Of a stretch of DNA of 64,000 nucleotides, positions 31,193 to 42,486 are shown one piece after another. The stretch covers positions 1-64,000 of the forward strand of contig MKUN01000029.1 in assembly GCA_001897835.1 (NCBI GenBank). Direction: 5' to 3'. The notes under the pieces are model-generated. The model ran no database searches. It saw only the letters and a program-made list of their open reading frames with translations, and was not told the DNA's origin. How positions within the stretch are numbered: the stretch's first letter is position 1; every line of letters starts with the position of its first letter. The stretch is from Bacteroidetes bacterium 46-16 (GTDB taxonomy: Bacteria > Bacteroidota > Bacteroidia > Chitinophagales > Chitinophagaceae). The translations under genes were made by a program, and so were the position numbers.

Positions 31193-31226
31193 AGGTAGCG
31201 GGCTTGTTATAACAAGCCCGCTACCT
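31193..31226. terminator. Perfect 34-bp palindrome terminator between convergent genes
   Basis: AGGTAGCGGGCTTGTTATAACAAGCCCGCTACCT equals its reverse complement; T-run follows on the minus strand, so best fit is the TonB receptor transcript. Confidence 0.85.
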
Positions 31227-31235
31227 ACCTCAATG

Positions 31236-33467
31236 CTACTTGATCGAATACCTGATACCTGCATAGATATTCCTGCCCATTACAGGCCCCCATATCATTG
31301 AAGCATCAAAATCCTTTCCGAAAGGATCACCTGAGCCCAGTATAGGGTTGGGCTGCATATAATTGGTAAGGTTTTCACCACCCAGATATAATTCAAGATC
31401 GTTCCTGAACTTTTTGCTTACCTGTGCATTCATCTGCACAAAGGATGGTGACCTGTATCCTTGCGGAGTGCTATACAGAGAAGGGATCCTTTTTGTCCCT
31501 ATCCACTGTATCGTATAATCAAATTTCCAGCTATTATTGGTTTCGTAACCAAAATTGGCAAAGGCCCTGTTGGCCGCTACGAGCGGCTTCTCTTTCATAA
31601 CGCCAGCATATCTTGTCATTACGTTGTACCAGCGATAAGCAAGACGCATGCTCAAATTGTGTACCAGCTCATAATCGAGCTGGGCCTGCAGGCTGTGCGC
31701 AAAGGAGTTTCCATGCAGGTTGTAAAAAGAAACCTGCCCCGGCACTTCCGCATCAGCTACCACCTGGTTTTGAAACCAGGTATAGTAATAATCTACGCCA
31801 AAGGAACCATCCCTGTAATTCAGCATGAACTTTTGTGTCAGGTTCACACCTGTATTCCAGGCCACCTCAGGCTGCAGATCATAGTTATTGCCTTTTACAG
31901 GTATAATAAAGCTGCGGCTACTGGCCATGTAACCCATGTTCTCAGCCAGTATATTGGCCGTGCGCTGGGCACGCCCTATCGACACACGTAATGCAGTCTT
32001 TTTGAACGGTGCATAACGCAAGTGCAGGCGCGGGGTAATAAAGCCCCCATACAGGCTATTGTAGTCGCCACGCAAGCCTGCTACGGCGGTAAACTTTTCC
32101 AGGTAAGTGTAGGTATATTCTGCAAATGCACCCGGCACAATTTCAGTACGCCTGAAGCGGTCCAATTCAAAGCCTTCGTTGTAATCATCTACAAGTGAGC
32201 TCAGGCCCAGCTTAAACCCATGGTTGGTGTTGCCGATTATGGACTGTAATATAAGGTTAGCATACAGGCTTTTCTGCGTGGCATCATAAGCGCGTTGCCC
32301 ATATAGAGCATCCTGGTTGTGGTATACCCCCGATAGTTGCAGCCCTATACTTGTTGCAGGTTTGTCAGGGAATATCTTGCCTATCTTGGCCCATCCTTCA
32401 GCACGTTTTGTATTCAGCTCAAAGCCCCACGGCTTACCAGCCAGCTGCTCATCGCCTTTGTGGTAGGCCCATTGTCCCCCGGTATTGGTCTTATACACAC
32501 CCTTAATACCCGCCTGCAGTTCAAGCCCATTATTCCCGTGATAGAACCAACGGTTGAGCAGTACGAACTGGTTGCCCAATGGCTGATCAAGGAAGCCATC
32601 GTTATTCTGATCTGTCTTTAGCCATTGCGAACTAACATTGGCAAACAAGTTGGAAGAGAGTTTTTTATTGAACTCTTTACGACCATAGAAATTGCCCTCG
32701 GTACGCCCCTGCCCGTTTTGATAAGCATTCAACAACACCTTTTCATCCTCAAAAGGCTTGCGCAATTCTATATTTATCTGGCCAGCTACACTTTCGTAAC
32801 CGTTCACTACGCTCCCGGTCCCCTTACTTAACTGCATACCTTCGATCCATATGCCGGGTGTATAGGTAAGACCCGTGATCGCAGCAAGGCCGCGCACGTC
32901 AGGAATATTCTCCCGGGTAATAAGCGTATAAGGCCCGGCCAGGCCCAGCATTTGTATCTGTTTATAGCCCGACACGGCATCGGTAAATGCGACATCGACC
33001 GAAGGGGTGGTCTCGAAACTTTCACTAAGATTGCAGCAGGCAGCTTTGAGCAATTCACCTTTTCCTATTTCTTCTACCTTCATAGGCTTCATAAGGCCTA
33101 TGCGGGTAGTGTTCAAATGCTGCTTTATGACTACCTCTTTCAACCTCCTCGGGGCTTTTAAGACCACATTTATGTTATTATTCCCCGCTTGCAGCTGAAC
33201 CGTATCCGGGTCGTAACCGATATAGGAGATCACCAGCCTGCCGGCACTGTCGGGTATATCCAGGCTGAAGCTACCATCAGCCGAGGTCTGTGTGCCTGTT
33301 GCTGTTCCCGGTATGGCTACCGTTGCACCCGGCAATGCCTGTTTTTTATCTTTTCCGTTCTTTTCATATACGGCACCCGTCACTTGCCTGACCGTTGGCT
33401 GTGCCAATACGGAGCTACATGCAAGCAAGGATATGCCGCTGAAAAGCAGTCTGTTCATATAATTCAT
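31236..33467 (-). CDS. TonB-dependent receptor with CarboxypepD_reg-like domain, probably metal-related
   Basis: QVTGAVYEKNGKDKKQALPGATVAIPGTATGTQTSADGSFSLDIPDSAGRLVISYIGYDP; plug IPDVRGLAAITGLTYTPGIWIEGMQLSKGTGSVVNGYESVAGQINIELRKP; Cys pair KAACCNLSESFETTPSVDVAF. Confidence 0.92.
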   Translation of the reverse strand: MNYMNRLLFSGISLLACSSVLAQPTVRQVTGAVYEKNGKDKKQALPGATVAIPGTATGTQTSADGSFSLDIPDSAGRLVISYIGYDPDTVQLQAGNNNINVVLKAPRRLKEVVIKQHLNTTRIGLMKPMKVEEIGKGELLKAACCNLSESFETTPSVDVAFTDAVSGYKQIQMLGLAGPYTLITRENIPDVRGLAAITGLTYTPGIWIEGMQLSKGTGSVVNGYESVAGQINIELRKPFEDEKVLLNAYQNGQGRTEGNFYGRKEFNKKLSSNLFANVSSQWLKTDQNNDGFLDQPLGNQFVLLNRWFYHGNNGLELQAGIKGVYKTNTGGQWAYHKGDEQLAGKPWGFELNTKRAEGWAKIGKIFPDKPATSIGLQLSGVYHNQDALYGQRAYDATQKSLYANLILQSIIGNTNHGFKLGLSSLVDDYNEGFELDRFRRTEIVPGAFAEYTYTYLEKFTAVAGLRGDYNSLYGGFITPRLHLRYAPFKKTALRVSIGRAQRTANILAENMGYMASSRSFIIPVKGNNYDLQPEVAWNTGVNLTQKFMLNYRDGSFGVDYYYTWFQNQVVADAEVPGQVSFYNLHGNSFAHSLQAQLDYELVHNLSMRLAYRWYNVMTRYAGVMKEKPLVAANRAFANFGYETNNSWKFDYTIQWIGTKRIPSLYSTPQGYRSPSFVQMNAQVSKKFRNDLELYLGGENLTNYMQPNPILGSGDPFGKDFDASMIWGPVMGRNIYAGIRYSIK

Positions 33468-33481
33468 TTCGCGATGAGGTT

Positions 33482-33832
33482 TTAGTGTTTATGTATGGCC
33501 TGGTCCTTGTATGCACAGCATTCCGGCAGCTTCTTATAATCTTCGTCCTTTACTTTCACCAGTTCCGACTCATGGCCGGCATGGGCCACGTGCTCCAGGA
33601 CGGTTTGTGCGGAGGTTAGCGATGGCCGGTAAGTAATGGTCAGTTGCTGCGTTTCCTTATCCCATTCTGCACGTTTGACACCTTTGATATAAGCAGCATT
33701 CTCAATGCGCTTTTTACATTGTTCACAATTTCCCGAGACCTTATAATGCTCCGTAACTATATCTTTTTTGTGCTGCGCAAAAAGAGTAAGGGAAGAAAAT
33801 ATAACTAATAGAAAAACGATGATCCGTTTCAT
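33482..33832 (-). CDS. Exported heavy-metal-associated (HMA) domain protein
   Basis: Signal peptide; HYKVSGNCEQCKKRIENAAYIKGVKRAEWDKETQQLTITY (CxxC HMA); C-terminal LPECCAYKDQAIHKH. Confidence 0.9.
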   Translation of the reverse strand: MKRIIVFLLVIFSSLTLFAQHKKDIVTEHYKVSGNCEQCKKRIENAAYIKGVKRAEWDKETQQLTITYRPSLTSAQTVLEHVAHAGHESELVKVKDEDYKKLPECCAYKDQAIHKH

Positions 33833-33891
33833 AAAAAATCACTTATTAAGGTTAAAAAATAAAATGTACTTATCCGTATACGGGAGTACAG

Positions 33892-34314
33892 TTAACCATA
33901 ATAAGTGAAGCGGGAATGGAGCTTGTATAAAGGTATATTTTGCCAGGTACCCGGCGGGGCATTGGCTTGATGTTGGGTAGCCGTAAGTGATAAAGCCGGC
34001 AGTGCCAAAGACCTCTCGCCATACAGCGGCAATACAGCTACATTAAAAAGCGGGATTTGTAATTTTAATTTATACGCAGATGCGTTGTTCTGTTCCTGCT
34101 GCACCTTAGCTACCACTACTTTGTCCTTGCAGCATTTCATGGGCTTCTTTGCCTCATTGCCGCAACCATCGTTGGCGCAACCGCCACAAAGTGCGGCTTT
34201 CAGGTACATATTCCATGATACCAGCTTGCTGCCGCAATAATGTGTGCTGATCATCACGCCCGACATTGCGAGCATATAGATGAACATCAACGGTATAGCA
34301 AGAAAACGCTTCAT
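33892..34314 (-). CDS. HYC_CC_PP family protein
   Basis: The three naming motifs occur in order: STHYCGSKL, PMKCCKDK, NAPPGTWQNIPLYKL. Confidence 0.88.
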   Translation of the reverse strand: MKRFLAIPLMFIYMLAMSGVMISTHYCGSKLVSWNMYLKAALCGGCANDGCGNEAKKPMKCCKDKVVVAKVQQEQNNASAYKLKLQIPLFNVAVLPLYGERSLALPALSLTATQHQANAPPGTWQNIPLYKLHSRFTYYG

Positions 34315-34322
34315 TATCCCTG

Positions 34323-34330
34323 CAAAGATA
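34323..34330 (-). promoter_or_regulatory. -7 element TATCTTTG for the metal-handling cluster
   Basis: TATCTTTG-CAGGGATA-ATG on minus strand. Confidence 0.5.
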
Positions 34331-38793: not shown

Positions 38794-39459
38794 ATGCTGC
38801 AAACAATATCAATAATATCCATATTAGCGGGCATCCTGTCCTCGCTCATCATACTGTTCCACGTATTGGCAGGGCATCAACAGAAAATGATGGTAATGAA
38901 CTTTGTATGGATCATTAGCGGCTTGTATGGCGGCCCAATTGCCTTGCTGGCATATTTCACTATCGGTAAAAAGGGCGCTTCCAATACCAGCCATGAAAAA
39001 GAAAACAGATCAAAGATAAGCTGGGAAAGTGTGGTGCTCAGTACCCTGCATTGTGGTAGCGGCTGCACCACAGGCGACATTATTGCCGAAACGCTGCTCT
39101 TATTGTTCCCCTTTACGCTATGGGGCAGCAAACTGGCTGCTTCGTGGACACTGGATTATCTCTTTGCATTCGCAGTGGGTATCTTATTTCAGTATTATGC
39201 TATAAAACCAATGAAAGATCTGCGGCCCAGGGAGGCCCTGGCGGCTGCATTTAAGGCCGATACACTATCCTTAACTACATGGCAGGTAGGTATGTACGGG
39301 GGTATGGCCATAGCTGATTTCCTCATTTTCAAACATCAACTTGAAGCAACTACCACCCTCTTCTGGTTTGTAATGCAACTGGCTATGTTACTGGGATTTC
39401 TGACCGCCTACCCGGCTAATGTGTGGTTAATTAAAAAAGGTATAAAAGAGCCGATGTAG
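38794..39459 (+). CDS. DUF4396-like membrane protein
   Basis: SVVLSTLHCGSGCTTGDIIAETLLLLFPFTLWGSKLAASWTLDYLFAFAVGILFQYYAIKPM. Confidence 0.82.
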   Translation: MLQTISIISILAGILSSLIILFHVLAGHQQKMMVMNFVWIISGLYGGPIALLAYFTIGKKGASNTSHEKENRSKISWESVVLSTLHCGSGCTTGDIIAETLLLLFPFTLWGSKLAASWTLDYLFAFAVGILFQYYAIKPMKDLRPREALAAAFKADTLSLTTWQVGMYGGMAIADFLIFKHQLEATTTLFWFVMQLAMLLGFLTAYPANVWLIKKGIKEPM

Positions 39460-40287: not shown

Positions 40288-42486
40288 CTACAATTGTAAC
40301 AGCCCCACCTTATACAAAGTATTCACCGGCTTATTGTCCCAGAACAATTCAAAATCTTCCAGCCCGGCCGCCTCATAACTATCCTTTAGTTCCTGCAGCG
40401 TGTGCAGTTTGATATTCCCTACCGAAAGCTGCCGGAGCATTTCAGCAAGCCATATACCTTGCGGCGCATCTACTTTTATATTTATGGTTTCACGCTTGCG
40501 CTCAAAGGTTAGCGAGGCCAGCTCCCACTGACTGCCTTTCTTCGATTTTGTGATCACTTCCAGGGCAGGCTGCATACCCAGGTACACCACTTTTGTATTG
40601 GGCCGGTTACTCACATACTCCCCTTCATCCAGGGCCTTCTGAATATAATCAGGCGCTATAGTTGTCTTAGGGGTTTTAAAATCGAACCATTTGTGCAGCG
40701 GCTGATCGAGGAACGTGCTGTGCATATAATTAAAGAGTGACTTTTTAAGGCCAAAACCAAATGCCTCATGATCAGCCCCAACCTCGTCTATATGCAGGAT
40801 ATCGTTATTGGCAAATGCGCCTATGGCTTCGCTCTCTTTGCGCACGCTGAATTTTTCAGGTTCCAGGCCTACAGGACTATGGGCCGTCATGGTGAAGAGG
40901 TGCCAGAATGCAGATTGCAGTATGCCTGCCGCAAACATCTGGCGAACCATTTCCAGCGAATCGATGGTCTCCTGGGCGGTTTGTGTGGGAAAACCATACA
41001 TCAGGTAAGCATGCACCATAATACCCGCCTCAGTAAAATGTTTATTGACCCTTGCCACCTGTGCTACGGTTATGCCTTTCTGTATCATTCCCAGCAACCT
41101 GTCGGATGCCACCTCAAGACCACCCGATACAGCGATGCAGCCCGAAGCTTTGAGCAGCAGGCAAAGATCGCGGGTGAAACTTTTTTCGAAGCGTATATTG
41201 GTCCACCAGCTTACTACAAGTTTACGCTTTAATATCTCCAAAGCCAGCGAACGCATCAATGCAGGTGGTGCGGCCTCGTCGACAAAATGAAAGCCTGTCT
41301 GCCCGGTCTGTGCTATTATTTCTTCCATCCTGTCGCAAAGCACATGGGCAGTCAGCGGCTCATAATTCTTTATATAGTCGAGGGAGATGTCGCAAAAAGT
41401 ACATTTGCCCCAGTAGCAACCATGCGCCATGGTCAGTTTATTCCAACGCCCGTCGCTCCAGAGGCTATGCATGGGGTTGGCCACTTCAATTGCCGAAATA
41501 TACTTGTCCAAAAGCAGGTCGCTGTAATCAGGTGTACCTACATCACCTTGTTTGTAGTCGCCACAGGACTGGTTGTTGATATAGGCTACCGAGCCATCTT
41601 TTAAAATAAAAGTGCGTTTTAGCTCCTCTACGGGTATCACTCCTTCTATATGTTTCACGAGCTGCTCCATAGGGCACTCGCCATCATCGAGACAAATGAA
41701 ATCGAAGAACTCAAATACCCGGGCATCTGAAAGTGAACGCAACTCTGTATTTGGAAAGCCCCCGCCCATCACCACCTTAACTGCAGGATAGTTTTGTTTT
41801 ATCCATTGGCCGCAACGAAAGGCAGCATATAGATTACCTGGGAATGGCACTGAAATAGCGACGAGCTTTGGCTGCAGGTTGCTCATATGCTCCCGGAGCA
41901 CATCAATGAGCATATTGTCAATAAAGGTGTAATGCTGCTGCAATAGCTGGTACAGTTCGTCAAAGCTGTTTGCCGAACGGCCCAGCTTCTCGGCATAGCG
42001 ACTAAAGCCGAAATGCGCATCTACACATTCTATCACGAGATCCGAGAGGTCTTCGAGGTACATAGTGGCGAGGTGCTTGGCGCGGTCCTGGTTGCCCATA
42101 CTGCCGAAGGCCCAATTCAGGTCATCAAGTTGGGCAAAGCGTGAGGCCTCAGGGAGAAAATCTCTTTTGCAGATCAAGTGCGCCAGGGTAGGATCGCGGC
42201 CCTGCAGGAAGCCAACAACAGGCTCAATGGTCTTTATATATTCGTTCTGCTGCGCAAGTATCCTGCGGGCATTATTACTCCATTCTGCATTGCCCGCGTC
42301 TATTTGTGCGAATAAATGTGATAAACCCTGTTTAGAAAATAGCCTTAAGGTGACCTCGATGCCAAGATCGGCCTGGAAGGATGGGATATTTTTGGTATTG
42401 AGAAAGCCCTTCAGGTACGCTGTAGCAGGGTAAGGTGTGTTCAGCTGGGTGAATGGGGGCGTAAATAAAAAAACAGGTGCGCTCAA
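40288..42486 (-). CDS. B12-binding domain-containing radical SAM protein with CX4CX2C cluster motif
   Basis: Central KLVAISVPFPGNLYAAFRCGQWIKQNYPAVKVVMGGGFPN (B12-binding-like); MAHGCYWGKCTFCDISLDY; FHFVDEAAPPALMRSLALEIL. TTG start. Confidence 0.88.
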   Translation of the reverse strand: MSAPVFLFTPPFTQLNTPYPATAYLKGFLNTKNIPSFQADLGIEVTLRLFSKQGLSHLFAQIDAGNAEWSNNARRILAQQNEYIKTIEPVVGFLQGRDPTLAHLICKRDFLPEASRFAQLDDLNWAFGSMGNQDRAKHLATMYLEDLSDLVIECVDAHFGFSRYAEKLGRSANSFDELYQLLQQHYTFIDNMLIDVLREHMSNLQPKLVAISVPFPGNLYAAFRCGQWIKQNYPAVKVVMGGGFPNTELRSLSDARVFEFFDFICLDDGECPMEQLVKHIEGVIPVEELKRTFILKDGSVAYINNQSCGDYKQGDVGTPDYSDLLLDKYISAIEVANPMHSLWSDGRWNKLTMAHGCYWGKCTFCDISLDYIKNYEPLTAHVLCDRMEEIIAQTGQTGFHFVDEAAPPALMRSLALEILKRKLVVSWWTNIRFEKSFTRDLCLLLKASGCIAVSGGLEVASDRLLGMIQKGITVAQVARVNKHFTEAGIMVHAYLMYGFPTQTAQETIDSLEMVRQMFAAGILQSAFWHLFTMTAHSPVGLEPEKFSVRKESEAIGAFANNDILHIDEVGADHEAFGFGLKKSLFNYMHSTFLDQPLHKWFDFKTPKTTIAPDYIQKALDEGEYVSNRPNTKVVYLGMQPALEVITKSKKGSQWELASLTFERKRETINIKVDAPQGIWLAEMLRQLSVGNIKLHTLQELKDSYEAAGLEDFELFWDNKPVNTLYKVGLLQL

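Follow-up and report, generated by a model that had tools for sequence, protein, structure and literature searches.

A putative copper-acquisition operon of Bacteroidota whose first gene may encode its own copper-sensing leader

INTRODUCTION

A compact three-gene locus in the genome of Bacteroidetes bacterium 46-16 raises the question of what its small, Cys-containing first gene does for the two genes behind it, and for which metal. The locus lies in a 64,000-nucleotide stretch of contig MKUN01000029.1 (the window), and a preliminary description of this DNA proposed that a protein of the HYC_CC_PP family, an HMA-domain protein, and a TonB-dependent receptor together mediate outer membrane import and periplasmic relay of a soft metal, probably copper. 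We ask here whether the first gene is part of such a relay or instead controls the others.

Nascent copper sensors are known in other bacteria, where Cys and PP motifs in a short leader protein control expression of the next gene, as described for CruR (PMC9426467) and in the main text on CutF (PMC9973294); the former acts through Rho termination (PMC9426467) and the latter through the opening of a stem-loop (PMC9973294). Copper leader ORFs of the RAPP/RGPP type are reported to be absent from Bacteroidota (PMC12992588). The main text of the CutF study places 40% (normalised) of CutF-like proteins in Bacteroidota and notes that CutF-related leaders precede TonB-like and RND genes (PMC9973294).

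RESULTS

Locus layout. Three minus-strand genes lie within positions 31193-34330, in the order HYC_CC_PP (34314-33892; 140 aa, the proposed copper-sensing leader ORF), HMA-domain protein (33832-33482; 116 aa, with a signal peptide, a CxxC, and a second CC), and TonB-dependent receptor (33467-31236; 743 aa, a member of the Cys-Cys [CC] clade described below). Each carries the Cys motifs that had been read in it (THYC/CCKD, GNCEQC/ECC, and KAACCNLSE, respectively), and the palindrome of 34 bp taken as the terminator is a 15-pair stem followed by a U tail (31226-31193, minus strand). The proposal of a single promoter holds with a qualification. The box TATCTTTG, a Bacteroidota-type -7 promoter element read in the sequence (34330-34323, minus strand), is present 8 nt before the HYC_CC_PP ATG, so that the mRNA leader would be very short, and boxes of this type are beyond chance as a class, with TAnnTTTG found no more than 150 nt ahead of the HYC gene in 64/96 relatives versus 12% in shuffles. 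However, no -33 box is seen by eye before TATCTTTG, and the operon is preceded on the same strand by a GDSL-lipase gene, with no terminator found in the 80-nt gap between them, so read-through into the operon is possible. The operon likely starts upstream of HYC_CC_PP.

Conservation of the gene set. Receptor matches (E<=1e-60) come from 144 of the 199 genomes of the order and from 88 of the 218 of the phylum. Among 123 related loci, some of them cut by contig ends, the HMA gene is adjacent to the receptor gene in 75, fused to the receptor N terminus in 36, and missing from 12. The preliminary description had staked its proposal on conservation of the triad, and the triad is indeed conserved, with HMA fused or adjacent in 111/123 loci and HYC_CC_PP adjacent in 92/123, although these and the other comparative statistics rest on related, non-independent loci. 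Two kinds of gene order occur, HYC-HMA-receptor and HYC-receptor-HMA. HMA-receptor fusion or fission requires four changes on the tree, at least 3 of them on well-supported branches, and the link has thus been gained or lost repeatedly. These several independent gene fusions bear out the coupling suggested earlier and are strong comparative evidence that the HMA protein and the receptor work together.

HMA-domain protein. The HMA protein scores 23.3 bits against PF00403, just under the cut-off of 24.8, and resembles solved HMA domains of Cu-ATPases. Its CxxC (C36, C39) is present in 110/110 relatives and its second CC (C105, C106) in 108/110. We note that in Flavobacteriales and Pedobacter relatives (L096, L109, L116, and L118) an HMA-MauE membrane protein of about 240 aa adjoins the receptor, and it is possible that this is a further copper-handling partner.

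The receptor and its clade. Pfam profiles identify an N-terminal CarboxypepD-like domain followed by the plug and beta-barrel that characterize TonB-dependent transporters, and the AF2 model is confident (pLDDT 91.6). The plug contains adjacent Cys residues, C144 and C145 (AACC motif; codons at 33033..33038, minus strand), that are invariant in 117/117 receptors, and these CC receptors form one side of a support-100 branch in a tree of 86 receptors. None of the 26 loci with Cys-less sister receptors has an HMA or HYC_CC_PP gene (0/26). A DtxR-type regulator is encoded within two genes of about eleven of the 26, and FeoA/B-, Nramp-, ZIP-, or Fur-like genes lie near some of the sister loci (L192-L197 and L212-L231), these neighbors being named by reading their sequences and by phmmer likeness rather than family scans. 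The Cys-less sister clade is probably an iron/manganese/zinc receptor family, and we infer that the soft-metal branch arose from an Fe/Mn-type metal receptor by gaining the Cys pair and the HMA partner.

The fold search returns TonB transporters generally, with OprC among the matches and BtuB, Cir, and siderophore receptors scoring slightly better; it does not discriminate, giving similar scores to siderophore, B12, and copper receptors. The sequence search of solved structures gave only one 93-residue chain, called a TonB-dependent receptor, which matches the CarboxypepD-like domain. TIGR01778 (OprC/NosA) is absent among the NCBIfam matches listed for the receptor and has none above the cut-off in the host genome, and the CxxxM of OprC is lacking at the receptor CC, which is followed by N-L-S-E with no Met at +4. 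A receptor of the CrtA type, with no conserved Cys or Met and a PepSY_TM neighbor, was also considered; it is ruled out by the invariant Cys-Cys and because no PepSY_TM cluster was recognised among the conserved neighbors of related loci.

HYC_CC_PP. The first gene matches NF047658 with 58.2 bits (cut-off, 28) and has no match to any Pfam family; PF11162 (DUF2946) matches were found neither here nor in 41 genomes of the order. A literature search for HYC_CC_PP gave no paper. Conservation is concentrated in three motifs: H25 Y26 C27 (codons at 34234..34242), with C27 in 93/97 relatives; C61 C62 (34129..34134), in 96/97 and 97/97; and P120 P121 within NAPP (33952..33957), in 94 and 91 of 97, all on the minus strand. 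Mean column identity is 20%, with little kept beyond the Cys and PP columns. The distance from CC to PP has a median of 56 residues with a standard deviation of 2.9, versus 7.5 for that from HYC to CC. PP is absent from about a tenth of HYC proteins and RAPP is not conserved, the residue at -1 being mostly A or S and that at -2 mostly N or H. PP lies about 17 codons ahead of the stop, and the tail that follows it is conserved, which may point to a stable HYC protein. The AF2 model is largely disordered (pLDDT 71.8); it shows an export helix at the N terminus and predicts a small beta-sheet close to the HYC motif.

In most loci HYC is the first of the three genes, and the median gap to the next gene is 81 nt, compared with 18 nt between HMA and receptor genes. 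A combination of Cys residues with a C-terminal PP is found in 88/96 HYC genes but in only 12/597 other small ORFs. Seven loci without HYC code in the same place for a small DUF6660-type protein with a Cys cluster and a C-terminal PP. HYC_CC_PP thus has the features of the known leader class, being small, exported, Cys-containing, with a C-terminal PP at fixed spacing, and first in metal operons. The first position, the conservation of Cys and PP only, the fixed CC-PP geometry, and the replacement by DUF6660-type leaders all suggest that it is probably a copper-sensing leader ORF, similar to CruR and CutF, rather than a relay protein.

A hairpin at the HYC_CC_PP junction. The mRNA is predicted to form a 25-bp hairpin from the end of HYC_CC_PP to just before the HMA start (33839..33908, minus strand; fold z -3.0 and -5.4). 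Its 5' arm (33908-33881) comprises the last HYC_CC_PP codons and the stop, and its 3' arm (33876-33839), joined to it by 25 pairs, ends 7 nt before the HMA start. By fold prediction this is a stem-loop over the downstream start region, as in CutF. The hairpin recurs at 75/88 HYC junctions, where the median fold z is -2.9, compared with -0.4 at 322 other same-strand junctions; among junctions matched for gap length these values are -3.1 and -0.6 (p 3e-15), and eight or more bridging pairs occur at 83% of HYC junctions versus 34% of the matched others. The leader's own stop codon is paired at 78/88 HYC junctions, and the corresponding stop codon at 101/225 controls; HMA/receptor junctions of the same operons have a fold z of -0.1. 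At the median, the 5' arm begins 7 nt ahead of the stop and the 3' arm finishes 4 nt short of the ATG.

When arms are exchanged between junctions, 57% of HYC junctions beat 95% of the swaps, compared with 11% of controls, which is covariation at the family level. Coding fixes the outer arm, so that the window's close clade shows no double compensatory pairs, and sequence-based covariation is uninformative there. The hairpin has no Rfam match. Where the next gene is CusA-like, DUF3347, thioredoxin-like, or beta-propeller-like, a hairpin is present at 13/15 HYC junctions (median z, -3.8), and it is often present at DUF6660 junctions; it thus belongs to the leader and not to the receptor. HYC_CC_PP genes also immediately precede genes for CusA/CzcA-like RND efflux, in most cases with hairpins (L232-L235, L237, and L242), and the leader therefore seems to serve efflux as well as import.

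Which metal. Copper is the likely metal of the operon, judging from the gene neighborhoods of its relatives, in which a Cu-ATPase or MbnP/MbnH genes occur, and from HYC paralogues of the host near copper-resistance clusters. A Maribacter locus (L119) encodes a complete Cu P1B ATPase (with CPC, YN....P, and M..SS motifs) between HYC and the receptor, and this protein scores above the TIGR01511 cut-off. The earlier statement that no P-type ATPase is adjacent is therefore correct for the window and does not extend to all relatives. MbnP- and MbnH-like genes, scoring below the equivalog cut-offs, are inside two related loci and beside two more, and the five further HYC_CC_PP genes of the host lie within or close to clusters that contain multicopper oxidase, Cu-ATPase, and DUF3347 genes. 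Both the outer membrane import and the soft metal, probably copper, of the preliminary description are thus backed by comparative evidence. Receptor presence does not track with heme-copper oxidases beyond 0/10 among genomes without COX1, all but one of which come from a single family; COX1 is near universal (208/218 genomes), so this link test has low power.

Several copper-resistance islands are present in the host genome (L183, L184, L186, and L187, on contigs 46, 31, and 29). They include genes for multicopper oxidase, Cu-ATPase, DUF3347, DUF305, and HYC_CC_PP, and one of them (L187) also codes for a Cys-rich four-helix protein resembling copper-storage proteins. A second receptor module on contig 46 (L002:1098-4902) has a DUF6660 leader, a Cys-less TonB receptor, and an HMA-CDF-like transporter, with a strong hairpin at the DUF6660 junction (z -3.7).

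DISCUSSION

We consider it moderately probable that this operon serves copper acquisition and that the copper sensor controlling it is its own first gene. Copper, free or chelated, would cross the outer membrane through the CC receptor, with the Cys144-Cys145 pair of the plug as a soft-metal site, and would be taken up beside the plug by the periplasmic HMA protein through its CxxC and second CC; in many relatives this protein is part of the receptor. HYC_CC_PP would be translated first, its Cys cluster being outside the ribosome while PP is near the peptidyl-transferase center, and copper bound to the nascent, exported chain may alter how far or how fast the ribosome goes. The position of the ribosome at the end of HYC_CC_PP would then set the hairpin, with HMA and receptor made when it is open and not made when it is closed, and in an import operon copper would be expected to turn translation off.

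The stall site or the logic by which the ribosome would act on the hairpin must differ from CutF, since a ribosome stalled exactly at a PP about 17 codons before the stop is too far away to melt it. Either the hairpin stays closed when the ribosome stalls at PP, or stalling occurs at the conserved end of HYC_CC_PP; the latter would fit with Bacteroidota leaders upstream of secA and secDF, which end in NSP-stop or NAP-stop (PMC10987492). Structure around the start codon, and not Shine-Dalgarno pairing, tunes initiation in Bacteroidota (PMC6847099), and a hairpin at the start is therefore a plausible switch.

The relay role first proposed for HYC_CC_PP is thus the less likely one, since gene order, disorder, CC-PP spacing, and the hairpin make a leader ORF more likely, and the earlier statement that the locus has no known regulator beside it probably overlooks the first gene as the regulator itself. 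HYC_CC_PP could still be a membrane-anchored or periplasmic copper-binding protein that acts as a relay with HMA, the hairpin being only an element for mRNA stability or translation tuning. The conserved Cys clusters, export helix, predicted beta-sheet, and conserved tail after PP are all in keeping with this, as is its treatment as a protein family by NCBI, but conservation limited to Cys and PP columns, the fixed CC-PP spacing, the interchange of HYC with DUF6660-type Cys...PP leaders, and a hairpin that pairs its own stop codon far more often than at control junctions count against it, and we regard it as unlikely, if the strongest of the alternatives. A leader ORF could also act through the hairpin as a transcription attenuator or a Rho-linked terminator, for which CruR provides the precedent (PMC9426467). 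With a median of 23% G-C pairs the stems are rich in AU, and UUUUU precedes the start in only 5/88, so these hairpins are not intrinsic terminators, and the position of the 3' arm at the start codon (median, -4 nt) also speaks for a translation switch; attenuation therefore seems rather improbable.

Adjacent Cys residues together with a CxxC provide a chemistry that favors Cu(I). This is one reason to think it quite improbable that the metal is a different soft or borderline one, such as zinc, nickel, or cobalt, the other being that copper genes make up all the informative metal neighbors, whether of the CC clade or of the HYC paralogues. Zinc, however, is also bound by HMA and CxxC sites, DtxR, Fur, Nramp, Feo, and ZIP genes are found around the Cys-less sister receptors, and the second receptor module of the host (contig 46) includes a CDF-like transporter.

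The closest parallels to a leader-controlled copper operon are the CruR and CutF systems of Proteobacteria. In Bordetella, CruR (DUF2946) is likewise a small exported Cys protein with a C-terminal PP that heads a copper TonB receptor operon, with BfrG/CrtA (PMC9426467 and PMC12914433), and its Cys-to-PP spacing of about 51 residues (from the first Cys of CXXC, using published coordinates; PMC9426467) is similar to the 56 of HYC_CC_PP. The two belong to different sequence families, with CXXC in one and CC/HYC in the other, and PP is 3 residues from the end in CruR but 17 in HYC_CC_PP, which lacks RAPP. A 162-nt Rho region follows CruR, whereas the hairpin after HYC_CC_PP is located at the start of the next gene; the partner is PepSY_TM in the CruR operon and HMA here, and CrtA lacks conserved Cys residues, in contrast to the invariant Cys-Cys of the receptor described here. 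In Rhodobacter capsulatus, according to the main text of the CutF report, CutF-CutO similarly has an exported Cys/PP leader and a stem-loop hiding the next start region, but CutF controls a copper oxidase and has PP at its very end (PMC9973294), whereas HYC_CC_PP heads a receptor operon and has PP 17 residues from the end. OprC/NosA are also TonB receptors with a plug Cys as copper ligand (PMC8610252), and differ in using CxxxM-HxM in place of an invariant adjacent Cys-Cys with an HMA partner and in belonging to TIGR01778. The HMA protein shares the CxxC ferredoxin-like metal site of MerP, CopZ, and HMA domains, but differs in being exported, in having a second, C-terminal LPxCCxY motif, and in being repeatedly fused to an outer membrane receptor.

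The leader class itself is anticipated by the Bacteroidota CutF-like proteins and TonB-like neighbors in the CutF survey, as presented in its main text (PMC9973294). That survey, as described there, accepted a PP only if it fell in the last 15 residues, a rule that would miss many HYC_CC_PP proteins, and the name HYC_CC_PP was not found in the main-text passages covered. Relative to the literature that we found, the new elements are HYC_CC_PP as such a leader, the CC receptor clade, and the HMA fusions; a search for copper TonB receptors and HMA in Bacteroidota gave only a Bizionia genome paper naming an OprC-like receptor. We give slightly better than an even chance to the broader proposal that HYC_CC_PP and DUF6660 proteins are phylum-wide copper leader ORFs of Bacteroidota, serving both import and efflux/detoxification through a stop-to-start hairpin that acts as a Shine-Dalgarno-independent switch, and tied to a new copper-receptor clade with built-in HMA.

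If the leader reading is true, it fills the reported gap in copper leader ORFs of Bacteroidota (PMC12992588), turns the motif-only family HYC_CC_PP into a copper sensor acting during its own translation, and shows a hairpin switch working without Shine-Dalgarno control. Outer membrane copper uptake is known for few receptors, and none named in the literature found belongs to the CC clade; the Cys-Cys plug with its fused or adjacent HMA makes copper handover at the outer membrane directly testable.

Two other genes in the window deserve mention. A DUF4396 membrane protein with a CGSGC motif is encoded at 38794-39459, 4.5 kb from the locus, and a metal link is possible. At 40288-42486 is a gene for a B12-type radical SAM protein whose best NCBIfam match, rSAM_ocin_1, is far below the cut-off.
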